A DNA stretch of 64,000 nt from Algoriphagus lutimaris (GTDB lineage Bacteria; Bacteroidota; Bacteroidia; Cytophagales; Cyclobacteriaceae), in the NCBI RefSeq assembly GCF_017051705.1, contig NZ_JAFIDJ010000002.1:1185151-1249150 (forward strand), written 5' to 3'. Position 1 is the stretch's first letter; every line of letters starts with the position of its first letter. The notes below the pieces were generated by a model. That model worked only from the letters and a program-made list of their open reading frames with translations. It made no database searches and had not been told where the DNA came from. The translations under genes were made by a program, and so were the position numbers. Shown piece by piece: positions 2,025-15,623 of the stretch.

Positions 2025-3542
2025 TTATTTCTTAAGGATTTTATGAGATTCTTGACGAGATCCCCAATTAATTTTTATAGTGTATAACCCATTTTTGGAA
2101 TGAAGAAGATATTCCCGAAGAATAGCTGTTAGTTCGTCAGGGTTATAACCTGAAAAAGTATTGGTTGTCCCATTCATTTGGATAATTGAGACACTTATTA
2201 ACTGGTCAAAAAGAGAAGCTGGATCATTTAGTCTTAAATTTAAATTGGCACCGTTGGTTGGATTAGGATAAAGATTCCATTTTTTAGAGGATAGCAAAGG
2301 GTCTACCTGGATGCTTTTGGTTTTACTATAGCTAAAGCTTCCATCTACATCAATTTGTTTTATCCTATAAAATATATTTCCACCTGTAAAAGGAAGATGT
2401 TCATCCTGATATGAATAGGCAGAAATTTCTTGAGTATATCCCTTTCCATCTACTCTCCCAATAGTTTCCCAATATTCGATCGTATTTACTGATCGCTCAA
2501 TTTCAAAATGAGAATTTTGCCACTCTTTGCCAGTCGCCCATTCCAACAAGCTCTTTCGATCTCTTGAATTATAAAACGTATTAAAATAAAGAATTTCAAC
2601 GGGTAAGATCCTATAGATTATATTTACCACAACCACTCCATCAGCACCTTTACTTCCACTAGAGGCTCCAGCATTTCCTCCTGAACCATTTGAGCCGTAT
2701 CCATTTCCTCCCACTCCATCTGCAGTCGTACCAGTTCCACCTCCACCGGCTCCAAAAATCCCTGTAAAACCATTTGGAGTAATTCCATCTCCTCCATTTC
2801 CACCTTGCCCAATAGAAGCAGATGATACGCCAGAAAATCCTGCTCCAGCAGCACCTCCTCCTCCGGCTCCAGCTGCTAAAGAATTGGTGGTATAACTTCC
2901 GTTTCCTCCAGAATTTAAATAAATGATTCCTGCTCCAGCTCCTGAGCTTGTTCCGCCTCCAGAACCTGGGCCAGCTTGAGATGCCGGAGTTATTCTAGAA
3001 CCACCTCCTCCACCCGAACCGCCAATACCGCCATCTCTATTTGAACCAGAGCCTCCTCCGTATCCACCCCCGTTAGCTCTAAACGTACTAGAAATAGTTC
3101 CAGAATTTAAAACAACGATTGTATTTCCTCCAACAGTTCCTCTATTGCTTGAGTTAACTGAACCATTTCCTCCAGTTCCAATAGTAATAACTAATTCAGC
3201 TCCTAAATTCAAATCCACATTGATGACTTTAACTTCTCCACCACCTCCACCTCCAGCTGAAGTGCCACCTCCACCGCCACCTCCACCGCCAACTAGTAGG
3301 ATATCTACATTTGCCACTGCAAAAATTTCACTTGTTGGGTCAAACCCTGTAATATCAGAAAGGTCAGTGATTGTGAATGTTCCGTTGGAAGTGTAGGTCT
3401 TTGTTGCGCTAACAGACCTGACATATTGGGCTGAAGAATCTAAAACACTCCATAAAAAAGAGATTGAAATCAATGAAAACCGTAATAGAGCGTTCAAATT
3501 GAAATAAAACTTGAAGCTCCAAAGAGCAAATTTTAGATTCAT
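2025..3542 (-). CDS. Glycine-rich surface protein with T9SS type A C-terminal sorting domain
   Basis: A 505-aa protein probably exported through the Sec system and then the type IX secretion system. The first about 39 residues form a long signal peptide ending in SSAQ. Residues about 45-310 are a glycine-rich domain with Gly runs (VGGGGGGGGG) interrupted by short strand-forming segments. Residues about 315-420 look like a fibronectin/Ig-type linker with LLEWATGKEWQNSHFEIER, a sequence type common just before T9SS tails. The last about 80 residues carry the sorting signature: LYPNP near 425, GLYTIKI and a Lys-rich end (HKILKK). The first gene of the window has the same Gly-rich domain, so the two are probably related surface proteins. 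Glycine-rich domains of this type are of unknown function; adhesion or matrix roles are guesses. Confidence 0.85.
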   Translation of the reverse strand: MNLKFALWSFKFYFNLNALLRFSLISISFLWSVLDSSAQYVRSVSATKTYTSNGTFTITDLSDITGFDPTSEIFAVANVDILLVGGGGGGGGGTSAGGGGGGEVKVINVDLNLGAELVITIGTGGNGSVNSSNRGTVGGNTIVVLNSGTISSTFRANGGGYGGGSGSNRDGGIGGSGGGGGSRITPASQAGPGSGGGTSSGAGAGIIYLNSGGNGSYTTNSLAAGAGGGGAAGAGFSGVSSASIGQGGNGGDGITPNGFTGIFGAGGGGTGTTADGVGGNGYGSNGSGGNAGASSGSKGADGVVVVNIIYRILPVEILYFNTFYNSRDRKSLLEWATGKEWQNSHFEIERSVNTIEYWETIGRVDGKGYTQEISAYSYQDEHLPFTGGNIFYRIKQIDVDGSFSYSKTKSIQVDPLLSSKKWNLYPNPTNGANLNLRLNDPASLFDQLISVSIIQMNGTTNTFSGYNPDELTAILREYLLHSKNGLYTIKINWGSRQESHKILKK

Positions 3543-3888
3543 TCTTTAGACTTAAAAATTTAATCTTTATCAGGGTGAGATTAAAGACCAAATTCTTTCA
3601 GAACTAATTAAATGCTGTTTTAATTAAAACAACTAGCTAATTGAATACCAACTGAAATTTAAATTATATGCCTTAATATTTAAGTCATAATTCATTGAAT
3701 GTCAGTGGATAGGGTGTACTTATTTAGGGTTCTCAAATGTAAATAGTCTCCATCAATTTTTTACATTTACCTCCAAAAAAATGTCGAATAACTACTGAAA
3801 AATCTGTTTGGATTTTTTATTCTACAAAAAATAAAAGCCTTTGATTTAATTAAATCAAAGGCTTTAAAATCGATTCGGAATTGATAAT
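3543..3888. other. Intergenic region with the rho terminator
   Basis: A 346-base AT-rich gap between the glycine-rich surface gene and the end of rho. Apart from the palindromic terminator at 3834-3865 I see no gene. The promoter of the rho operon is not here, since rho reads toward this gap. Confidence 0.5.
3834..3865 (-). terminator. Rho-independent-type terminator after rho
   Basis: A perfect 16+16 base palindrome (AAAGCCTTTGATTTAA and its complement) with no loop bases. Read on the minus strand it is followed by a T-rich stretch (TATTTTTTG), 24 bases past the rho stop codon. It is AU-rich but long. Confidence 0.7.
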
Positions 3889-5646
3889 TTACCCGTTCAT
3901 GCTGATCAAAAACTCAGCATTATCTCGGGTTCCTTTCATTCGCTGTAATAAGAATTCCATAGACTCCTGAGCGGTCATATCACTCATGAGTTTACGCAGA
4001 ATCCATACTCGCTGCATTTCTTCTTTGTCCATCAAGAGATCTTCTCTTCTTGTTCCAGAACTCAATACATCGATAGATGGATAGATTCTTCTGTTGGCAA
4101 GTTTTCTGTCCAAGGCCAGTTCCATGTTGCCTGTTCCTTTGAATTCTTCAAAGATCACTTCATCCATCTTAGATCCTGTTTCTACCAAGGCTGTAGCAAT
4201 GATGGTTAATGAACCACCATTCTCAACATTTCTCGCAGCTCCAAAGAATCTTTTTGGCTTATGAAGTGCATTGGCGTCCACACCACCGGAAAGGATTTTT
4301 CCTGAACTAGGTACTACTGTGTTATGGGCTCTGGCAAGTCTGGTAATAGAATCCAATAAGATCACCACGTCATGACCAACTTCCACCATTCTCTTGGCTT
4401 TCTCCAATACAATATTGGCCACTTTTACGTGACGGTCAGCCGTCTCATCAAATGTAGAAGAGATCACCTCTGCATTCACCGATCTCGCCATATCCGTCAC
4501 TTCTTCTGGTCTTTCGTCAATCAGAAGAATCATCAGATGCACTTCAGGATGGTTTTTGGTGATCGCATTGGCAATCTGCTGTAATAGTACAGTTTTACCA
4601 GTTTTTGGCTGTGCAACAATCATCCCTCTTTGCCCTTTACCAATTGGCGCAAATAAATCCAGGATTCTTGTAGACATTTTATCAGGAGAAGTAGAAAGAT
4701 TTAATCTTTCCTCAGGGAAAAGAGGTGTCAAGTACTCAAATGGTACTCTATCTCTTATTTCATCCGTGGTTTTACCATTGACTGTCTCAATTTTTAATAG
4801 GGCAAAATACTTTTCCCCCTCTTTTGGAGGTCGAATGGATCCTTTGATATGGTCTCCTGTCTTTAAGCCAAACAGTTTTACTTGGCTAGGTGACACATAA
4901 ATATCATCGGGAGAAGCAAGGTAATTGTAGTCTAAAGATCTTAAGAAACCATAGCCTTCCTGCATCATTTCCAAGACACCTTCATTGACAATAACACCAT
5001 CAAATTCACGAGCACTGACAAAAGGTCTTTTTCTATTGGAATGTGGTGTAGTTTCAGCAGCAGGCGCCATCACCTCATCCTGAGATTTGAAATTTTTCCT
5101 TCTTGGAAGTTCTACCTCTGGCTCTGGTTTATCGCTGGATTTTGGAGAAGGCACAGCTGATTTTGGATTTTCTTCTTTACTCTTCTCATCAAAAACCTTT
5201 TTTCTTGGTCTAAAAGTTTTGGCTTCATCTGTTTTAGCTGTATCCTCTTTAGTAGCTTCAGCTTTTGCTGGTGCTTCTTTCTTAGGTGCTCTTTCAGTTT
5301 TTGCTGGTGCTTCTTTCTTAGGTTCTTCCGAAGATGAGTTCTCAGTAGGTTTTTCTTTCGGGATCTCCGTTACATTTTGCCTTTTAAATTTAGGCTTGAA
5401 TTCAGGTTCTTCGGTAGCAGGTTTTGCACTTGGTGCTACTGTTTTCTCTTCCTCTGGAGCTTTGATTTCAGCAACAGACGGTTTCTTTTTAGGCAATGCT
5501 TTTTCTGGGGTGATAGCTTGCTGGTCAAGGATCGCGTAGACTAGATCGTCTTTCTTTAGAGTCTTGTGGTTTTTAACTCCCAGTTCCTCTGCGATTTCCT
5601 TCAGTTCAGACAGTAGTCTGATTCTGAGTTCTTCTATGTTGTACAT
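3889..5646 (-). CDS. rho: Transcription termination factor Rho
   Basis: Rho is the hexameric RNA-dependent ATPase that ends transcription of untranslated RNA. The protein is 585 aa from the ATG at 5646 ([10 protein letters not shown]). A frame extension to a TTG at 5763 adds 39 residues unlike any Rho and is rejected. Residues 1-43 are the Rho_N helical domain. Residues 44-205 are a low-complexity insert rich in Lys, Glu, Pro and Ala (repeats of KKEAPAK). Residues about 206-290 are the cold-shock-type RNA-binding domain (GYGFLRS). The ATPase follows, with Walker A AQPKTGKT at 345-352 and Walker [18 protein letters not shown]. coli Rho is 419 aa, so the extra length is all in the insert, as in other Bacteroidota. 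It is downstream of recO, 205 bases away, and may have its own promoter. Confidence 0.97.
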
Positions 5647-5851
5647 AAAGAGGGTATGAAATAATAATATTTTGTAAAATGCGGTATTTGGGATCGTAAT
5701 TGATTTTCTGAGCAAAAATGGTCTGCAGGAAAAACTTAAGTCAAAGTGGGCTGACTTAGACAACTACGCTACGACACAATATTAAAGGATCGGTTTGGAT
5801 TTAGCAAATTTTTATTCCTTTAGTGTCATTTTCTTTCTAATTGTTTTTATA

Positions 5852-6541
5852 TCAGTCTAAAAGCTGACGAAGTATAGTCATGGATTTCCAGGTTTGATTG
5901 TTTTCCAATTGTTGATTATAAAATTCGAGTAAGTGATCCATCAATTTCCTTCTTAAAGACAAAGGGACGATGACATCACAAGCATATTTAGAAGCAATTA
6001 ACTTGTTGATGAAATTTTCAGCTGACTCAAGCTCCTCTAATCTAAAGGGTTGTCCTTGATTCTCTGTTAAAAATTCTTTGGCACTTTCGGGAGCAAAGCC
6101 GAGATATTTGGCATGCTCTATTAAAAATACCAAAGGAAAATGGCTTATGGAACACTCTTGTTGATCCAATTCGATAATACTTTGTTCCAAAAAATCAAAA
6201 AGGAACTCATTTTGATAATTTTCATAAATAGACCTTGTAAGTACCTCCGTCATAAATAATGCTATTCCGGTTCGGTTAAAATCAAAAGGGATCAATTGAT
6301 TAGCTCGGATTAGTTTGACCTCAGATATCCGTTGAAGTCCAGTACTTTCTTTATTATAAACAACCATGTCTAATAAGGTCATGGGTTGGTATAAGGCAAT
6401 TTTAGATTTACTATTCTGACTTCTTACTCCATTGATTAAATACGACTTCAATCCAAGTTCTCTAGTAAAAACTTTGCAAATAATGCTACTCTCTTTGTAG
6501 CGAATATAGCTTAATACGATTCCTGATGTTTTATGAAGCAT
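5852..6541 (-). CDS. recO: DNA repair protein RecO
   Basis: RecO works with RecR to load RecA onto SSB-coated single-stranded DNA in the RecFOR recombination pathway. The 229-aa length is typical. The N-terminal OB-fold is recognisable (HKTSGIVLSYIRYKESSIICKV, then GLKSYLINGVR), followed by the helical C-terminal domain. The four Cys of the Gram-positive RecO zinc finger are absent, as is common in Bacteroidota. Its start codon overlaps the tdk stop by one base (TAATG), so the two are translationally coupled. Confidence 0.93.
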   Translation of the reverse strand: MLHKTSGIVLSYIRYKESSIICKVFTRELGLKSYLINGVRSQNSKSKIALYQPMTLLDMVVYNKESTGLQRISEVKLIRANQLIPFDFNRTGIALFMTEVLTRSIYENYQNEFLFDFLEQSIIELDQQECSISHFPLVFLIEHAKYLGFAPESAKEFLTENQGQPFRLEELESAENFINKLIASKYACDVIVPLSLRRKLMDHLLEFYNQQLENNQTWKSMTILRQLLD

Positions 6542-7125
6542 TAGTTCTTATCCTCGAAGAAGCATTTCCTACACCTAGCCTCATAGGCTTCTTTCTCTCC
6601 CAACATCACTTTTTGTTTGGAATCTGAAAGTCTAAGAGAAAAGGCCGCTAGATCACCACATTTCATACAAATTGCATGGACCTTCGTGACAAATTCAGCT
6701 ATGGCCATTAAACTGGGCATGGGCTCGAATGGATTACCTTCAAAATCCATATCCAAGCCTGCTAATATCACTCTTTTACCCTGTCTCGAAAGTTTTTGCG
6801 CAACAGAGACGATTTCATTGTCAAAAAACTGAACCTCATCAATTCCTACCACATCACAGTCCCCACTCAGCAAAAGGATGTCTCCGGCAAAATCTACTGG
6901 AGTAGAACGGATGGTGTTTTCATTATGGGAAACCACCTCTGATTCACTATACCTTTTATCGATCGATGGTTTGAATATCTCCACTTTTTGACGGGCTATT
7001 TTTGCTCTGTTTAACCTTCGAATCAACTCTTCGGTTTTGCCAGAAAACATGGACCCGCAAATAACTTCTATTTGACCTTTTCTATCAGGAGATTTGTTCC
7101 TTCCTATTGAAGGTTCGATAAACAT
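6541..7125 (-). CDS. tdk: Thymidine kinase
   Basis: Type II thymidine kinase: phosphorylates thymidine to dTMP in pyrimidine salvage. The 194-aa protein has the P-loop [15 protein letters not shown] near residue 26, a Walker B-like [11 protein letters not shown], and the lasso/zinc region with paired cysteines (CMKCGD and CRKCF) in the last third. The N-terminal [14 protein letters not shown] leader is usual for Bacteroidota. It lies between the ferredoxin gene (4 bases upstream) and recO (1-base overlap), so all three are probably co-transcribed. Confidence 0.96.
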
Positions 7126-7129
7126 ATCT

Positions 7130-7456
7130 TTATTTACTATATTCTATATGTGGAAACTTATTGATTTCAGCCACACGAACCACCACTTCACCTGAGATCA
7201 ATTCTGCTTGACAAGATAAGCGTTCATTGGTTTTTAACCTTCCAAGATTCTCAAATTTCTCTTCTGCGGGAGTTTTGGGACTCAAATTTTCACTGCCAGA
7301 CATAACAATGATCTTACAAGTGGTACATCGTCCCTTTTTACCACAGGCATGCATCCAATCAATACCATTTTCATGAATTAATTCAATAACTTTACAATGA
7401 GCTGCATTAGAATTAATTTCTCGATTAAATAGGTTTTGAATGACTATTCGGGACAT
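7130..7456 (-). CDS. 2Fe-2S ferredoxin
   Basis: A 108-aa plant/adrenodoxin-type ferredoxin, an electron carrier in the cytoplasm. The cluster ligands are visible: [11 protein letters not shown] (three Cys, spaced C-x5-C-x2-C) and the fourth Cys in RLSCQAEL. The partner reductase or oxygenase cannot be told from context. It heads a minus-strand run with tdk and recO. Its start lies only 32 bases from the divergent gene at 7489, so both promoters must overlap or sit inside the opposing gene. Confidence 0.9.
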
Positions 7457-7488
7457 TTATTCGTTGCTTTTTTAAACAGGACTAACCA

Positions 7489-8616
7489 ATGACTATTCAA
7501 ATTAACAGCAATTATTTAGAAAAATACGGCAAGGAGTACGCCAGCATCGTATGCGAAGGGTTTTTTGCTTCGAAAAAATACATGACAGGGCAGGATATTA
7601 TTCAATTAACCAGCAGTACTCAAGTAAACTTTTTTGTTATAAAAAGACTATTTGAGCTTTGGCAGGATGAATTGGCCAAATTGAAAAGCAATCCATATTT
7701 TGATTATCGAGATATAGCTGTCCATGAAGCCCTTTCACAATTTATGAATGTATTGTCCAGAAGGATAAAGGTGGAACGTACTCATATAGAGCCTTTGATA
7801 GAAACGGCTGTCGTTCAATCTATCCAATTAGCGACTGATCCTGTTCGGTATTATCAATCCGAAATAGAGAATACTCCGGAAGGAAAAATTAATGAGTATT
7901 TGAAAGAAAATAAAAAATACTATAAATGGCATGATCGGGTAATTACATTTTTGATTGATAAGGCAGGCTTTGGACATGATAAAAGTGAATACCTCAGGGC
8001 AATCAGTGCTAACTACCAGGTAGTAAAAGATTCTTTAGAGTCAGAAAATCTTTTGTTGGCAACCTTCGGTGATATCAAAGCCTTTAACCTGGATGCTTAC
8101 AGGGAGCCAATAGGGGCAGAAGAGCCAAGAATAAGCCCTGCTTCTCATGAAGATGATTCCTCTACTTCCTTTTTTGATCAAATGGATGCTGCAGAAGTTA
8201 CTCCTTCAAAAAATGAGGTGAAGGAAGGGCCTAAAGAAGAAATCCCTAAATTGGAAAAAGAAGAACCAGTATTTTCCTCTCCTAAAACTAACCATGCTGG
8301 GAATGGATCATCATTGAACATTGCTGCAATTAAAAGCAGGTTTGCTTCAGAATCTTATAATGGCATGAAAGGGGTGATAGGTGATTTGTCTGAAAGCCTT
8401 GCTATTAATCAACGGTTTATGTTCACCAAAGAGCTTTTCGATGGCAATTCAGATTTATTGACCCATGCATTAAAATCTATCGATGCATGTCGAAATTTTA
8501 ATGATGCAATTGACCTTGTCAACTCACGCTATGTGAACGAATTGAATTGGGAGACAGAGTCCGAACCTGTTCAGGAGTTTCTTTTATTGATTTATAGAAA
8601 GTTCGATGATGTGTAA
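7489..8616 (+). CDS. Conserved hypothetical protein, 375 aa
   Basis: I do not recognise this protein. It is cytoplasmic in appearance: no signal peptide and no membrane segment. Residues about 1-200 are a compact, mostly helical domain (YASIVCEGFFASKKYMTG, then a run with LFELWQDELAKLK). Residues about 205-280 are an acidic, Ser/Glu/Pro-rich linker that looks disordered. The last about 95 residues form a second helical domain (NIAAIKSRFASESYNGMKGVIG...). The shape suggests an adaptor or scaffold with two folded ends. It is monocistronic: a strong terminator follows at 8640. Confidence 0.75.
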   Translation: MTIQINSNYLEKYGKEYASIVCEGFFASKKYMTGQDIIQLTSSTQVNFFVIKRLFELWQDELAKLKSNPYFDYRDIAVHEALSQFMNVLSRRIKVERTHIEPLIETAVVQSIQLATDPVRYYQSEIENTPEGKINEYLKENKKYYKWHDRVITFLIDKAGFGHDKSEYLRAISANYQVVKDSLESENLLLATFGDIKAFNLDAYREPIGAEEPRISPASHEDDSSTSFFDQMDAAEVTPSKNEVKEGPKEEIPKLEKEEPVFSSPKTNHAGNGSSLNIAAIKSRFASESYNGMKGVIGDLSESLAINQRFMFTKELFDGNSDLLTHALKSIDACRNFNDAIDLVNSRYVNELNWETESEPVQEFLLLIYRKFDDV

Positions 8617-8764: not shown

Positions 8765-9331
8765 ATGGTCAAAAAAGGAGAAGGGATGGAGGATGTCCCT
8801 GAATTTGATTCTGGTATAGATATTATTGATAACTACTGGTATCTTATTAATTACCTAAGAGATTTGATAAAAGCCTCAGAAATCAAGGCCGGTTTAGTGC
8901 TTTCTTTTTATGGTTTACTAATTAATGTATTTTTTCAATTTTCTGACCATTTAATTGAAGTGGCCGCTGAAGACCCATTTATTTATATTTTCCTTTCGAT
9001 GTGGTTTTTGTTTAGTGTAGTTTCAATTTTTTATAGTTTCAGATGCTTTATGCCCCAAATTGAAAGTAAGTTTGATAATAGTGTATTCTTTTTTGGAGAT
9101 ATCATCAATTCTTACGGAACCATCAAGGAATACGTAAAAGTGTTGGAGCAGGTAAGTGTAAAACGAAAGCCTTTACTTGAACAATTAGGAGAACAAGTAT
9201 ATATTAATGCCAAAATCACCGCTGCAAAATTCCGTAATGTGAACCTATCTATTAGATTTCTTTCCTTCAATATTGGCCTATTGTTTGTTTTTATTTTGTA
9301 TTATGCCTTAAGAACTGCGTTATTAGGCTGA
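8765..9331 (+). CDS. PycTM-like (DUF5706) membrane protein
   Basis: A 188-aa integral membrane protein of the PycTM/DUF5706 type, the membrane effector family of pyrimidine cyclase (Pycsar) anti-phage systems. What I see: a helix with the family signature ASEIKAGLVLSFYGLL running into membrane segment 1 (about 41-59), segment 2 at about 70-92 ending in FRCFMP, a soluble amphipathic region with EQVYINAKITAAKFR (about 143-157), and segment 3 at about 162-184. In the known systems the effector is opened by cCMP or cUMP and disrupts the inner membrane. The ATG at 8765 is used here; the ATG at 8786 has a better ribosome site (AGGAG six bases upstream) and may be the true start. The HD gene follows after 16 bases, so the two form one operon. 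Family assignment is from motif memory; function here is inference. Confidence 0.7.
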   Translation: MVKKGEGMEDVPEFDSGIDIIDNYWYLINYLRDLIKASEIKAGLVLSFYGLLINVFFQFSDHLIEVAAEDPFIYIFLSMWFLFSVVSIFYSFRCFMPQIESKFDNSVFFFGDIINSYGTIKEYVKVLEQVSVKRKPLLEQLGEQVYINAKITAAKFRNVNLSIRFLSFNIGLLFVFILYYALRTALLG

Positions 9332-9347
9332 ATTCTTTTTTAATGAA

Positions 9348-9923
9348 ATGAAGGGATATCTAAAACTTAGGAGAATTGTACTAGACAAGCTTGAAGCCGA
9401 TTTGCCTTCATATCTTTCCTATCATGGAATGGATCATACGTTGGACGTATTAAATGTTTGTGAGCAATATATCAGACGTTTAAATCTTTCGGAAGAACAA
9501 AGATATCTATTAAGAATAGGAGCAATTGTTCATGATATGGGGTTCTTAAAAGGTCCTGCAAATCATGAGGAGGTAGGTTCGGAAATGGCAGCAGGGATTA
9601 TGCAGCAATTAGGAATGAATGAAAGCCACATTAAAGAAGTAAAAGGCTTGGTGATGGCTACCAAAATTCCTCAGACTCCTTTAAATCCCTTACAAATGAT
9701 TATTTGTGATGCGGATTTGGATTATTTAGGAAGAACCGATTATCCTGAAATTAGTCAGAAACTTTTTGAAGAGCTCAAATACATGAAGGTCATTGAGACA
9801 GATGAACAGTGGAAAAATTTGCAAATCAATTTTTTAAAAGCGCATCATTTTCATACTCCATTTGCAATTAAAAACCGAGAGCCCCAAAAGCAGGCGTGGC
9901 TTAATAAGCTGTTAACTTCTTAA
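9348..9923 (+). CDS. HD-domain phosphohydrolase, partner of PycTM-like protein
   Basis: A 191-aa metal-dependent HD-superfamily phosphohydrolase, probably acting on a nucleotide or cyclic nucleotide. Metal ligands are intact: H26/H30 in YHGMDHT, H62-D63 in IVHDMGF, H73 in NHEE, and Asp in CDADLDYLG (121-125). The set YHxxxHT...HDxGF...HEE...ATK.PQ.P...CDADL.YLG is the one I associate with Bacteroidota proteins in which this HD domain is fused to a C-terminal DUF5706/PycTM membrane domain. Here the membrane part is instead the separate gene just upstream. Its 3' end overlaps the rodA stop by four bases on the opposite strand. Substrate is unknown. Confidence 0.8.
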   Translation: MKGYLKLRRIVLDKLEADLPSYLSYHGMDHTLDVLNVCEQYIRRLNLSEEQRYLLRIGAIVHDMGFLKGPANHEEVGSEMAAGIMQQLGMNESHIKEVKGLVMATKIPQTPLNPLQMIICDADLDYLGRTDYPEISQKLFEELKYMKVIETDEQWKNLQINFLKAHHFHTPFAIKNREPQKQAWLNKLLTS

Positions 9924-11194: not shown

Positions 11195-12997
11195 TTAATA
11201 AATAAAATTCCCTGCCAGTACATATTGCTCTAGCTCAGGTCTAGTGATTTCATTGCGGATGTATTTTTCGATCATGAGGGAGGCTGTACTAGCAGCAGCT
11301 CTACCACCCCAACCCGCATTTTCTACATACACCGCGATGGCTATTTTTGGATCATCCTTAGGGGCAAAGGCCACAAACACAGAATGGTCTTCACCATGGG
11401 GGTTTTGAGCGGTTCCAGTTTTACCTGCAATGACCAAATCTTTCATAATTGCTCGGGTTGCTGTACCATATAGTGCTTCTGCCATGGCATCCTGAATCAT
11501 GTCAAAATGATGAGCATCAACTCCGACCTCATTTTTCGTTCTGTATTTCTCCGGAATTTTTGTAGGATCGTTGTCTATGGATTTTACTAAATGAGGGGGA
11601 TAGTAATATCCTTTATTCGCAAAGATTGCAGCTAAATTGGCCATTTGTAGCGGGGTGACCAGCATTTCGCCTTGACCAATAGAAAGGGAGTAAATGGTGC
11701 TGTATTTCCATCTGCCCTCACCATAAAAACGGTCATAGTATTTACTGGATGGGACGCTACCTCCTTTTTCATTGGGCATATCCACTCCCAATCGACTACC
11801 TAAACCGAATTTCAACACTTTTTCCCGCCAAGCATTCAGTCCAATTTCAGTGTCCTTGTAAGTATTCGAAGAAACTTCTTGATTGATGATTTGACGGAAA
11901 GCTTGGTGGTAATAGGGGTTACAAGAATTTCTTATTGCACCGAATAGATTAACTGGTGAAGGGTGATTATGGCAAGCCACCAAAGACTTGTTACATGCAA
12001 AGGTAGTATTTGGAGTAAGGATTCCCTCTTGCAACCCAATTAAGCTCTGAACCACTTTGAAAATGGAACCAGGAGGATAAGTTGCCATGATAGGCCTGTT
12101 GAAGAGAGGTTTGCTTTCATCAGAGTTTAAACTTCTATAAGTTTTACTGAAATCAGCCCCGGTCAAATCATTTGGATTATAATAGGGAGAGGAAATCATG
12201 GCCAAAATCTCTCCAGTTTTTGGTTCAATAGCCACTACCGAACCTTTTTTTCCACCCATCAACAACTCACCATATTTCTGCAAGTCCATATCAATGGTGG
12301 AGGTAATATTTTTTCCAGCTATAGAAGCAGTATCGTATTCTCCATCTTTGAAAGGCCCTTTGTCAACGCCTCTTACATTGACCATTTTATATTTAACCCC
12401 TTTCTTTCCTCTTAAATCATCTTCATAAAATCGTTCCATTCCGCTCAGACCAACGTAGTCCCCCTGGACATAATAATTGGACGAGTCTCTTTCCAATTGC
12501 CTTGCATTGATTTCTCCAATATAACCCAAGGCATGAGCGGCAATGGGCAATGGATAAGATCTGACGGAGCGGGTCATGATAAATAATCCCGGGTAATCTA
12601 TGAGGTAATCTTGCATTCTGGCAAAATCCGTAGTAGAAATTTGCTTGATCAGCGGGGAGGGTTTTACCCAAGAATATTTTCTTGCAGCCTGATAGGATTC
12701 TATTAGCTCCTCTTTAGTGATTTTGAAAAGTTCCAGGAATCGAGTAGTGTCTCCTACTTCAAATTCCTTTGGCACAATCATCAGATCAAAGATCGGATTG
12801 TTGTAAACCAAAAGTTTCCCATTCCGATCATATACGAGCCCTCGGTAGGGGTGGTCTACCACGCGCTGTATAGCATTCCTTTCAGCTTTTTTCATAAAGC
12901 TGTCGTCCATTACCTGGATCATAAATAGTTTGGTCAATAGTACCAAACCGATCAAGAAAATGAAGATGATTATTGCTACGGGTCTTTGGTCGTTCAT
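11195..12997 (-). CDS. mrdA: Penicillin-binding protein 2 (elongasome transpeptidase)
   Basis: PBP2 cross-links peptidoglycan in the elongasome. It is 600 aa with one N-terminal membrane anchor (about residues 8-28), the pedestal/dimerisation domain, and a transpeptidase domain with all three motifs: S311-x-x-K314 (PPGSIFK), S358-x-N360 (RNSCN) and KTGT at 526-529. Its start overlaps the mreD stop by one base and its stop touches the rodA start, a layout that keeps polymerase and cross-linker in step. Confidence 0.96.
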   Translation of the reverse strand: MNDQRPVAIIIFIFLIGLVLLTKLFMIQVMDDSFMKKAERNAIQRVVDHPYRGLVYDRNGKLLVYNNPIFDLMIVPKEFEVGDTTRFLELFKITKEELIESYQAARKYSWVKPSPLIKQISTTDFARMQDYLIDYPGLFIMTRSVRSYPLPIAAHALGYIGEINARQLERDSSNYYVQGDYVGLSGMERFYEDDLRGKKGVKYKMVNVRGVDKGPFKDGEYDTASIAGKNITSTIDMDLQKYGELLMGGKKGSVVAIEPKTGEILAMISSPYYNPNDLTGADFSKTYRSLNSDESKPLFNRPIMATYPPGSIFKVVQSLIGLQEGILTPNTTFACNKSLVACHNHPSPVNLFGAIRNSCNPYYHQAFRQIINQEVSSNTYKDTEIGLNAWREKVLKFGLGSRLGVDMPNEKGGSVPSSKYYDRFYGEGRWKYSTIYSLSIGQGEMLVTPLQMANLAAIFANKGYYYPPHLVKSIDNDPTKIPEKYRTKNEVGVDAHHFDMIQDAMAEALYGTATRAIMKDLVIAGKTGTAQNPHGEDHSVFVAFAPKDDPKIAIAVYVENAGWGGRAAASTASLMIEKYIRNEITRPELEQYVLAGNFIY

Positions 12998-13518
12998 CAG
13001 ATTCCTCTCCTACGTTTGAAGAACAGTAGTTGTACAATTATAGCCAAAAGGACTGTAAAAATCGAGGAGAATAAGCTTTTGTTTAAGATCCCTAAAAAAG
13101 CTCCTGACCCCCATTGATCAGCAGTAAAGAATAATAGACAAAATGCAAAGGTTAAAGGAAGGGAATAGCTTATGAACCATCCCAATCCCATTTCCTGCAG
13201 GGTAGGTTGGGTAGAGTCATCATATCCTCCATTTGGTCGGATGATTTTTAACCATAATGGTCTTAAAAATGCAAGTAGGGTGGCAGCAGAGGCATGTAAT
13301 CCTAAGGTATCATAGAATACATCAATAGTAAGACCGACTCCAAAACTGATTAATAAGAGTGGGATTTCTCTAATTTGAAATGGTAAGCTAAGAATCCCCA
13401 CTAAGTATAAAAAGCAAAATGCAATACCGAATAGGGCAAGATTTTTTAAAAAAAGAATCTGAACGAGCCCTAAAATCAATAGAAGAAAAATAAAAGAAAT
13501 CAGATTTCTAAAATTCAT
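12997..13518 (-). CDS. mreD: Rod shape-determining protein MreD
   Basis: A small (173 aa) multi-pass membrane protein with about five hydrophobic segments. MreD proteins are poorly conserved; the call rests on size, topology and position between mreC and mrdA. It links the MreB filament to the periplasmic part of the elongasome. It overlaps mreC by 11 bases and mrdA by one base. Confidence 0.88.
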   Translation of the reverse strand: MNFRNLISFIFLLLILGLVQILFLKNLALFGIAFCFLYLVGILSLPFQIREIPLLLISFGVGLTIDVFYDTLGLHASAATLLAFLRPLWLKIIRPNGGYDDSTQPTLQEMGLGWFISYSLPLTFAFCLLFFTADQWGSGAFLGILNKSLFSSIFTVLLAIIVQLLFFKRRRGI

Positions 13519-14344
13519 TAGTTAATTCAGATTGTTGATATAAAGAATCCAATTCATCGATCTGCGTATTTTCTACTAAATACACATAAGAAATTTTACT
13601 AAAATCCGCAGTGAGGGTTACTTCAATATCCAAGTAATTTGGATCTGAGGATTGGATAACATTTGAGATGACACCTATTTTTAAATTTCTAGGAAATACC
13701 GCACTGTAACCTGAAGTGACCACCGTATCCCCAACTTGTGCCTGGACGTGTCTTGGGACATACAACATTTTGGCTTTCTTGGAATCTTTCCCATTCCAAT
13801 TGATAGATCCAAAATCTCCGGTAGACTTGATAATCGACGAGATCAAAAGATCATTATTCAATAACGAAATGCCGACTGCATAATTGTCTGAAACAGATTT
13901 TACCCTTCCGACTACTCCGCTCTCATTGAAAATCCCCATTCCTGGTTTCACTCCTTGTTTCCTGCCCTTGTTCAAGGTCATGTGATTTTGAGTATATCGC
14001 AAAGAGTTACTGATCACTCTTGCTCCCATAAATTCAAATTGGGAAGACAAGGCTGAATCCAAAGAGATTGATACACTATCCGGTTCCAGTTTTAAACTAC
14101 TCAATTTCTCCATGAGTCTTGAATTTTCTACTACTAAAGCTTCATTGGCTTCAGCAAGAGAGAAAAAATCACTCACATTCGATTGGGTCTCCAAAATTGA
14201 GCCTACTAATGCATTGGAGCTATTAAAGAACGCAGCACCCTGGGGGGAATTATTTGCTACTAGTAGCCAGATGGCAATTATTTCTAGTAAAATGAATAAA
14301 AGAAAGGACCTTAAACTATAAAGAAATTGTAGGATGCGTAGCAT
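13508..14344 (-). CDS. mreC: Rod shape-determining protein MreC
   Basis: MreC (278 aa) is a bitopic inner-membrane protein that activates PBP2. It has one membrane segment near residues 12-30, a coiled-coil region (about 60-90, ANEALVVENSRLMEKLSSLK) and the beta-barrel periplasmic domain with NRGRKQGVKPGMGI-like and GVVGRVKSVSDNYAVG motifs. It sits 7 bases after mreB and overlaps mreD. Confidence 0.94.
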   Translation of the reverse strand: MLRILQFLYSLRSFLLFILLEIIAIWLLVANNSPQGAAFFNSSNALVGSILETQSNVSDFFSLAEANEALVVENSRLMEKLSSLKLEPDSVSISLDSALSSQFEFMGARVISNSLRYTQNHMTLNKGRKQGVKPGMGIFNESGVVGRVKSVSDNYAVGISLLNNDLLISSIIKSTGDFGSINWNGKDSKKAKMLYVPRHVQAQVGDTVVTSGYSAVFPRNLKIGVISNVIQSSDPNYLDIEVTLTADFSKISYVYLVENTQIDELDSLYQQSELTNEF

Positions 14345-14351
14345 TCAGGGT

Positions 14352-15380
14352 TTATGTCATCAATACTGTTCTGAAATTCTGTATATTTTTCAAGGCAGTT
14401 CCGGTACCTCTTACCACTGCTCTTAATGGATCTTCTGCGATGTGAATTGGAAGTTTGGTTTTTTGATGCAATCTTTTATCCAAACCTTTCAATAAAGCCC
14501 CTCCACCAGTCAAATGGATTCCGTTGTCATAAATATCCGCAGACAATTCAGGAGGTGCAATTTCCAAAGCTTTAAGAACAGCTTCTTCGATTTTGGAAAC
14601 AGATTTGTCCAAGGCAAATGCAATCTCTGAATAAGATACTTTAATTACTTTTGGAATTCCTGTCATCAAGTCACGGCCACGGATTTCATGATCTTCTGGT
14701 GGCTCATCAAGTTCGGTCAACGCAGATCCAATGGCGATTTTTACTTTTTCGGCAGATCTTTCCCCAATTAACAAATTGTGTTGCCTTCTCATATAATCCA
14801 AAATGTCTTTGGTGAAGGTATCACCTGCAACTCTGATGGATTGATCAGCAACAATACCTGACAAAGCAATCAAAGCAATTTCGGTTGTACCCCCTCCGAT
14901 ATCAACAATCATAGATCCCATTGGCTTTTCTATGTCGATTCCAATTCCTATTGCGGCAGCAATCGGTTCGAAAATCATATATACTTCTTTGGCACCTGCA
15001 TGTTCCGCTGAGTCACGAACAGCTCTTTTTTCAACTTCTGTAATACCTGAAGGGATACAGATCACCATGCGGTGTGATTGAGGAAACATTCCTTTCTTTT
15101 GACCAGGGATCATTTTTATCAACCCACGAATCATTTGTTCCGCTGCATAGAAATCAGCAATTACACCATCTTTTAATGGTCTAATTGTTTTGATGTTTTC
15201 ATGAGTTTTCTCATGCATGTTCATCGCTTCTCTTCCAACTGCCAACACACGGTTGTTGGTTTTATCAATCGCAATGATTGAGGGTTCGTCCACCACTATT
15301 TTATCCTTATGGATAATCAGCGTATTGGCTGTACCCAAATCGATGGCTATATCACTTGAGAAAAAATCGAATAATCCCAT
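14352..15380 (-). CDS. mreB: Rod shape-determining protein MreB
   Basis: MreB is the actin-like filament that positions wall synthesis. The 342-aa protein has the nucleotide-binding motifs: phosphate-1 DLGTANTLI near residue 15, phosphate-2 DIGGGTTEIA near 165, and the adenosine motif LTGGGALLKGL near 290. The N-terminal amphipathic/membrane-contact stretch is MGLFDFFSS. It is the first gene of a five-gene operon (mreB-mreC-mreD-mrdA-rodA) transcribed away from rimP. Confidence 0.98.
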   Translation of the reverse strand: MGLFDFFSSDIAIDLGTANTLIIHKDKIVVDEPSIIAIDKTNNRVLAVGREAMNMHEKTHENIKTIRPLKDGVIADFYAAEQMIRGLIKMIPGQKKGMFPQSHRMVICIPSGITEVEKRAVRDSAEHAGAKEVYMIFEPIAAAIGIGIDIEKPMGSMIVDIGGGTTEIALIALSGIVADQSIRVAGDTFTKDILDYMRRQHNLLIGERSAEKVKIAIGSALTELDEPPEDHEIRGRDLMTGIPKVIKVSYSEIAFALDKSVSKIEEAVLKALEIAPPELSADIYDNGIHLTGGGALLKGLDKRLHQKTKLPIHIAEDPLRAVVRGTGTALKNIQNFRTVLMT

Positions 15381-15461
15381 TTTTGACTTGTTGATTGGCT
15401 TAAAATTGCTGTTAATAGTTCAATATAGTACGATGAGTACTCAATATTAAACGGGGGTCGG

Positions 15462-15469
15462 CAAAATTA
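15462..15469 (-). promoter_or_regulatory. Candidate mreB-operon promoter (-7 element)
   Basis: On the minus strand this reads TAATTTTG, matching the Bacteroidota -7 consensus TAnnTTTG, 82 bases before the mreB start codon. No clear TTTG -33 element lies at the expected distance, so the call is moderate. Confidence 0.4.
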
Positions 15470-15623
15470 TTACCTTAATGGGAGAAATCTGAAAGAAACC
15501 CGATATTTTTTGGTGTTATTATTAAAATGGCGGTCAGTTACTTTGGTTGGTAAAATCAAAATGTAAGAAATCCCTCAATTTGGGTGTTACTTTACTTCTC
15601 TTCCTGTAGATTTTTTACTCAAA

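Follow-up and report, generated by a model that had tools for sequence, protein, structure and literature searches.

The DNA analysed here, referred to as the window, is a 64-kb stretch (64,000 nucleotides) of the genome of Algoriphagus lutimaris. It contains two neighbouring open reading frames on the plus strand, whose positions and spacing agree with those given in the initial annotation of this DNA (Table 1). The first encodes a membrane protein of the PycTM family, called TM in the following text, and the second an HD phosphohydrolase, called HD. Upstream of the pair are rho, recO, genes for thymidine kinase and a ferredoxin, and a gene of 375 aa, and downstream are a rodA/ftsW-type gene, a gene for a PBP transpeptidase, a gene without a match, and mreC. 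These neighbours look like core or housekeeping genes and not like a defence island. The 375-aa gene (window positions 7489-8616) matches no Pfam family above the cut-off and is also found upstream of HD in loci L072-L074.

Table 1 Features of the TM and HD genes, with positions counted in the window
Feature	Position	Strand	Description and basis
TM gene (PycTM family)	8765..9331	+	188 aa + stop; PF18967, PADLOC, hydropathy
HD phosphohydrolase gene	9348..9923	+	191 aa + stop; PF01966, tree with cyclase-HD fusions, AF2, Foldseek
Intergenic gap between TM and HD	9332..9347	+	16 bases
ASEIKAGL motif	8873..8896	+	TM residues 37-44, at the start of the first hydrophobic region; alignment
QVYINAKI helix motif	9194..9217	+	TM residues 144-151; Q144 and I151 invariant
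H26-x3-H30 codons	9423..9437	+	H(X)3H pattern resembling that of class I phosphodiesterases; 40-row alignment
H62-D63	9531..9536	+	HD metal dyad; invariant in 40-row alignment
D121-A-D123	9708..9716	+	third metal-ligand region; D121 and D123 invariant in 40-row alignment

PycTM proteins are cyclic-pyrimidine-triggered killers in phage defence. TM matches the Pfam family PycTM (PF18967, DUF5706) with a score of 46 bits (cut-off 27.2, E 7.7e-12) and the PADLOC PycTM profile with an E-value of 5.5e-27. Hydropathy identifies three hydrophobic regions, formed by residues ~42-60, 72-90, and 161-179, and residues S38, K41, and A42 are invariant in an alignment of 12 TM rows. The AF2 model of TM is all-helical, with a pLDDT of 82.4. 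A structure search of the PDB with the model gave no match with an E-value of 0.001 or less, and a search of PDB sequences gave a single match with an E-value of 0.52. TM belongs to one of the two effector types, PycTM or PycTIR, that are used to recognise Pycsar systems.

HD matches the Pfam family PF01966 with a score of 31.1 bits (cut-off 22, E 3.1e-7). No variation occurs at H26, H30, H62, D63, D121, or D123 among 40 aligned relatives, and H73 is almost invariant. The description of the two proteins in the initial annotation is therefore confirmed: both pass the profile check that it suggested, TM is a DUF5706/PycTM membrane protein with three hydrophobic regions and the two motifs that had been pointed out, and HD is intact, with the metal motifs as listed and H26 to be added to them. 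The lack of a significant DUF5706 match, which the annotation had named as an outcome speaking against its proposal, is contradicted by the E-value of PF18967. The spacing H26-x3-H30-x32-D63 agrees with the loose pattern H(X)3H(X)25-35D/E of class I phosphodiesterases, as quoted in PMC4222275. NCBIfam profiles gave only matches below the cut-off, which for HD include PII uridylyltransferases, HDIG, and Cas3. Weak PDEase_I matches are present in 11 of 40 HD members, compared to 19 of 40 for HD-CE and 12 of 40 for Ppx-GppA_III.

The AF2 model of HD has a pLDDT of 97.1. Catalytic domains of class I phosphodiesterases, which are over-represented in the PDB, form 46 of the 50 Foldseek matches listed for this model (TMq 0.55-0.71, E 4e-3 to 2e-2). 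HD shares with class I phosphodiesterases such as PDE4, PDE5, and PDE2 the helical HD-type catalytic core and the H(X)3H...D pattern, but it is much smaller (191 aa), and the Pfam profile PDEase_I does not reach its cut-off with the window HD (13.1 bits versus 24.8, E 0.08). The best PDB match of the model, and the only one with an E-value below 0.001, is the uncharacterised HD hydrolase 2pq7 (E 5e-4). The fit normalised to the length of the target is 0.64 for YpgQ and 0.61 for 2pq7, compared to at most 0.48 for the phosphodiesterases, and the structure of YpgQ with ADP is among the Foldseek matches listed. A search of PDB sequences with the HD profile gave 2pq7 as the best match (4.7e-9), together with a Cas10 chain and YedJ (3gw7, 3.4e-6), and the phosphodiesterases were weak.

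The genome of A. lutimaris also encodes a fused HD-PycTM protein (L001, 392 aa) and a second lone PycTM protein (L002, 195 aa). HD-PycTM fusions of Bacteroidota such as L001 resemble the window pair in combining an HD and a PycTM domain, but the genes in the window are separate and arranged in the opposite order. The proposal of the initial annotation that the window pair is a de-fused form of such a gene is not borne out by the phylogenies. In an HD tree of 84 rows, from which L136 and L144 were left out, the window HD is part of a 59-row clade (support 100/99) without any PycTM-fused HD, and 3 of the 37 standalone HD rows lie outside this clade. Forcing the HD group of the window together with the fused HDs changes the likelihood by -84.8 log units (AU p 2.7e-22). 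In a TM tree of 72 rows, a branch with support of 100/99 divides the rows into two sides, one of 34 rows with the window TM and the PycTMs of Pycsar and one of 38 rows with all 19 fused TMs used; the tree has long branches, and the row L202 was assigned to the PycC group by eye. Placing the Algoriphagus TMs on the fused side is rejected (AU p 0.0009), as is placing all HD-linked TMs in one clade (AU p 1.4e-46). HD is not nested among the fused HDs and TM is not nested among the fused TMs. On the basis of the two trees and their AU tests, an origin of the pair by splitting of a fused HD-PycTM gene is rejected.

Since the pair and the fusions come from different lineages of both HD and PycTM, the linkage of the two domains arose at least two times, as a fusion and as a separate gene pair. 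At least two independent joinings of HD and PycTM argue for a functional link between them. A constraint uniting all TM-partnered standalone HDs in one clade is not rejected (AU p 0.245), so the pairing of TM with a standalone HD may have had one origin or several.

Unfused arrangements also occur on the fused side of the trees. Locus L230 contains HD followed by an overlapping TM gene and is a candidate for a true split or pre-fusion form. The genes for the cyclase, TM, and HD are arranged in this order and in one direction in L234/L280, and L234 is another candidate for a true split or a pre-fusion form. A protein of ~1,200 aa with a 'LIGDAGE'-type start is encoded near fused-side PycTM genes (L276, positions 3183-6824; L280, positions 11804-15550). 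A cyclase is present within ~1.5 kb in 5 of the 51 fused HD-PycTM loci checked. A cyclase whose base-reading positions have the unusual pair Q+A is encoded immediately after the fused HD-PycTM gene in L022, L023, L026, L027, and L029.

Relatives of the window HD are linked to class III cyclases. Of 40 Cytophagales loci from 24 genera, 20 have a class III cyclase domain encoded within 1.5 kb of HD, and 27 have one within 8.5 kb. No such domain is present in the controls, which are 17 of 20 intended stretches (281 kb in total) taken from the same contigs at a distance of 200 kb. The survey loci were picked from ranked match lists, with one to several per genus, and the profiles of cyclase, HD, and TM were each built from few seeds. 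The 40 loci include one PycTM-fused HD (L147) and three HDs from outside the HD clade (L149-L151); none of these four has a near cyclase, and the count without them is 20 of 36. A protein resembling cNMP-binding proteins was detected by a single-seed profile in 17 of 40 HD regions and in none of the 17 controls, and the assignment to PF00027 was verified by Pfam for one of these proteins. In the wider class Bacteroidia, a cyclase is present within 1.5 kb in 7 of 20 standalone HD loci, and 13 are without one.

Direct fusions of a cyclase to HD were found among 20 Bacteroidia loci that had been selected for a long HD frame. Sixteen of these loci are single open reading frames in which HD follows a class III cyclase domain, a proportion that is not a rate because of the selection. 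Pfam, applied to five of the 16 fusions, detected both domains in all five, with HD above the cut-off in three. Of the remaining long-frame loci, three are HD-YitT fusions according to Pfam and one (L311) was assigned to neither type. The window HD and all 16 cyclase-HD fusions belong to a 74-row clade (support 100/99) that does not contain any PycTM-fused HD; the bootstrap of this tree was not fully settled, and 2 of the 13 Cytophagales standalone rows are outside the clade. We propose that these proteins constitute a cyclase-linked HD clade of Bacteroidota that includes the window HD. The clade is not described in the titles and abstract starts of the open-licence publications on cyclase-linked bacterial HD-type cAMP phosphodiesterases that were among the matches listed. 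The term 'DUF5706' was not found in the open-licence literature.

The cyclase-HD fusions (L306-L310, L312-L321, and L325) are 515-1320 aa long and have varied front parts, including a response regulator (L309), a TPR (L321), and a Reg_prop propeller (L316). They are candidates for self-limiting cAMP enzymes. In L322, L323, and L324, an HD of the window clade is fused to a YitT/DUF2179 membrane protein, as identified by Pfam. YitT is a second membrane partner of the window HD clade, fused to HD in L322-L324 and adjoining it in L068-L071. Proteins of 860-890 aa with TPRs and a C-terminal HD are encoded in L113 (positions 5880-8558), L115, and L116; their start appears TIR-like by eye, which was not confirmed by Pfam, and a cyclase adjoins the TPR-HD protein in L113 and L116.

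YpgQ hydrolyses (deoxy)NTP, and it is conceivable that HD, too, hydrolyses a nucleotide of this or another kind, with its linkage to cyclases reflecting a different metabolic need. The best profile matches of HD to structures, 2pq7 and YedJ, and the good fit by target length of the YpgQ-ADP structure point in this direction. Nevertheless, the direct cyclase-HD fusions within the clade of HD and the numerous class I phosphodiesterases among the structure matches listed make such an activity most improbable.

The window TM is part of a 15-row clade of the TM tree (support 100/98), which outside of Algoriphagus consists of one family and five single loci. A cyclase is encoded nearby in five of these six groups, two of which also have an HD of the window clade. 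TM and HD are convergent in all seven loci of family f8, and the start of a PAS-GAF cyclase gene of the L110 type is present in six of them, the seventh locus being incomplete; the cyclase domain was verified by Pfam in L110 only. The genes for TM, HD, and a 648-aa TPR cyclase are positioned in a row in L220/L279, and the HD of this locus is the sister of the window HD group (99/89). A response-regulator cyclase is encoded directly upstream of TM in L201 and L207, and TM has a nearby 622-aa TPR cyclase in L219. The region of L204 contains neither a cyclase nor an HD of the window clade. These loci were identified among 40 PycTM regions that are part of a longer match list, and L210 and L237 gave no TM open reading frame by profile. 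Judged by score and frame, four genomes with a TM of this clade (G455, G568, G504, and G403) do not have an HD of the window clade, indicating that HD is not obligate for TM. On the same judgement of these four genomes, the possibility that HD is an obligate antidote of TM is rejected.

A match to HD is present in 57 of 73 genomes of the genus Algoriphagus, and in 50 of the 51 of high quality. Close homologues with 68-100% identity were found in 26 genomes, and the other 31 have one with 37-43% identity. The four loci that were read from these 31 genomes (L068-L071) lack TM and adjoin a YitT-type gene, assigned by Pfam for L068. Of the 26 loci with close homologues, including that of the window, 15 have an intact TM directly upstream of HD, 8 have no TM, 2 retain a decayed remnant of it, and in 1 it is cut by the end of the contig. 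HD is intact in all 26, with or without TM, and 10 of the 26 have kept HD without an intact TM. A tree of HD plus RodA that includes L072-L074, three loci of two other genera without TM, needs six changes of the state of TM, at least four of which are forced by the starred branches. The preservation of HD while TM was repeatedly lost indicates that HD has a function independent of TM and that TM is a dispensable partner. Relative to L043, dN/dS is 0.048 for TM and 0.032 for HD, which suggests purifying selection on both; synonymous sites are saturated in most of the other pairs. Together with the conservation of the pair in the genus, this selection argues that the window pair is not a product of chance. 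The observation is real, and the TM-HD pair is a conserved unit. HD genes of relatives do adjoin DUF5706 proteins, and the second outcome named in the initial annotation as speaking against it, HD neighbours that never include such a protein, was therefore not encountered.

The distribution in the genus is also compatible with HD being a general housekeeping cAMP phosphodiesterase and TM a passenger with an incidental linkage. An HD homologue is nearly universal in the good-quality genomes of the genus, HD stays intact regardless of TM, the state of TM changed repeatedly, and in L072-L074, from two other genera, HD is preceded by the same upstream gene and TM is missing. However, TM appears to be under strong purifying selection, TM and HD of the window clade are also neighbours in family f8 and L220, in another orientation, and the fused family is a further case in which PycTM and an HD became linked. 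We consider it unlikely that TM is a mere passenger.

Evidence about the nucleotide comes from the cyclases linked to HD and TM. Class III adenylyl cyclases have K and D at two base-reading positions, and T is among the second-position residues of guanylyl cyclases, where it occurs together with E at the first position (PMC4215837). The ATP-type pair is present in all 20 cyclases adjacent to HD (K+D in 4 and K+T in 16), in all 16 cyclases fused to HD (K+D), and in all five cyclases near the clade of the window TM (K+D in 2 and K+T in 3). Here, K+T is also counted as an ATP-type pair, as in the cyanobacterial CyaC type. The pair is present in none of 12 PycC cyclases, which are those of 15 loci where the residues were read, and in none of seven cyclases adjoining fused-side HD-PycTM loci. 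Both TM and HD of the window thus belong to clades that are accompanied by ATP-type cyclases. As the 36 cyclases linked to the HD clade and the five linked to the TM clade that were examined are of the ATP type, the likely nucleotide is cAMP and not cCMP or cUMP. Based on its Pfam match, its grouping with cyclase-HD fusions, and its structural model, HD is predicted to be a 3',5'-cyclic nucleotide phosphodiesterase, and its substrate is probably cAMP.

The genome of A. lutimaris contains nine matches to Guanylate_cyc at E <= 10, and none of them is located within the 64-kb window. As the initial annotation stated, the locus lacks a cyclase: no PycC adjacent to the pair was detected in the window with Guanylate_cyc, one PycC protein, or one PycC profile, and on this basis a Pycsar system that is complete at the locus is rejected. 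The search for a PycC-type cyclase elsewhere in the genome, which had been recommended, covered one type of PycC: one PycC protein used as a query had no match in the genome at E <= 10, and one PADLOC PycC profile gave four weak matches to cyclases of A. lutimaris, the best with 37 bits, compared to 324.6 bits for a PycC adjoining a PycTM in another genome. Five of the eight A. lutimaris cyclases examined are of the ATP type and three are without the pair, and the residue pairs of the 12 PycC cyclases are absent from all eight.

These results bear on the possibility that the window pair is part of a split Pycsar system, in which cCMP or cUMP from an unlinked cyclase would be hydrolysed by HD. 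The position of TM in the tree, where it falls on the same side as the PycTMs of Pycsar, the three A. lutimaris cyclases without the ATP-type pair, and the weak matches of the PADLOC profile are compatible with such a system. It is nonetheless very unlikely, given that the examined cyclases of the TM and HD clades all have the ATP-type pair that the 12 PycC cyclases lack, that no residue pair seen in these 12 occurs in the eight cyclases examined, and that a true PycC scores far higher with the profile and a PycC protein of that type has no match in the genome at E <= 10. The window pair shares with the PycC-PycTM system of Pycsar a protein of the PycTM family (PF18967) and, in relatives, the linkage to a class III cyclase. 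It differs in being without an adjacent PycC, in the additional phosphodiesterase-like gene, in its flanking housekeeping genes, and in that the five examined cyclases near the clade of TM are of the ATP type and not of the PycC type. The designation of the pair as a Pycsar-related module holds for the PycTM effector, which is real, and for the intact HD, but cCMP or cUMP is a less likely ligand than cAMP because of the ATP-type cyclases. By the tests done, the pair appears to be Pycsar-like in its effector and not to be a Pycsar system.

The best-supported interpretation is a cAMP-linked relative of Pycsar, in which HD is the phosphodiesterase and TM the effector for the same nucleotide, and the cyclase acts in trans. 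It is supported by the fusion and linkage of the HD clade to adenylate-type cyclases, and we hold it with about even confidence. One or more class III adenylate-type cyclases encoded elsewhere in the genome would produce the nucleotide, most likely 3',5'-cAMP. An increase in its concentration would cause TM, as a PycTM-type protein, to open or disrupt the inner membrane, or to give a milder membrane signal, and HD would reset TM by lowering the nucleotide. The initial annotation had considered that HD may hydrolyse the ligand and act as an off switch, and this predicted function is the best reading. We infer cAMP as the ligand, catalysis by HD on cAMP, the gating of TM by its ligand, and membrane damage as the output. 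Several observations speak against the cAMP-linked interpretation: there is no cyclase near the window pair; 20 of the 40 survey loci, and 13 of the 20 in the wider class, are without a cyclase within 1.5 kb; HD is not obligate for TM and persists without an intact TM; and the matches of HD to phosphodiesterases have high E-values in Foldseek, a lower fit by target length than YpgQ and 2pq7, and a PDEase_I score below the cut-off. Moreover, SpdA, which had been predicted from a cyclase locus, acts on 2',3'-cAMP (PMC4222275), indicating that predictions of phosphodiesterases based on loci can miss the substrate.

The opposite sign of control has a precedent in the Panoptes system, in which OptE is inhibited by its nucleotide and the loss of the nucleotide leads to membrane collapse (PMC12657218, PMC12657230). 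By analogy, the nucleotide may restrain TM, and its removal by HD or by a phage enzyme would free TM to kill. A standing restraining signal is conceivable in the absence of a local cyclase, and OptS-OptE resembles what is proposed for the window TM in that a membrane effector is under the control of a cyclic nucleotide. However, PycTM is described as being activated by its cyclic pyrimidine (PMC11224242), the beta-barrel nucleotide sensor of OptE is missing from the all-helical model of TM, and TM is positioned near cyclases in genomes that do not have an HD of the window clade. Panoptes also differs in its Cas10-like synthase (PMC12657218, PMC12657230). Such an inverted arrangement is quite unlikely. 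The cAMP-linked interpretation has a parallel in CorA-NrN of type III CRISPR, where a membrane effector adjoins or is fused to a phosphodiesterase that removes its ligand, as is proposed here; the protein families are unrelated, and the ligand is SAM-AMP made by type III CRISPR (PMC10600005).

The HD clade that is physically fused and linked to adenylate-type cyclases is the new observation of this analysis. Tentatively, and with somewhat less than even confidence, the window pair may represent a cAMP-operated branch of PycTM, in which a PycTM is combined with a cyclase of the adenylate type and with a dedicated HD phosphodiesterase; these components would be linked in some Bacteroidota and split in Algoriphagus. 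In the same tentative scheme, the HD clade would comprise unrecognised and widespread cAMP phosphodiesterases, often fused to cyclases. Gating by cyclic nucleotides would be a general property of the PycTM membrane proteins, and phage defence only one use among others. If one clade of PycTM answers to cAMP and is able to travel with its own phosphodiesterase, defence effectors and cAMP signalling share parts. Some database 'Pycsar' calls would then need to be re-checked by the type of the cyclase, and the HD clade would be a candidate cAMP remover for Bacteroidota with class III cyclases.
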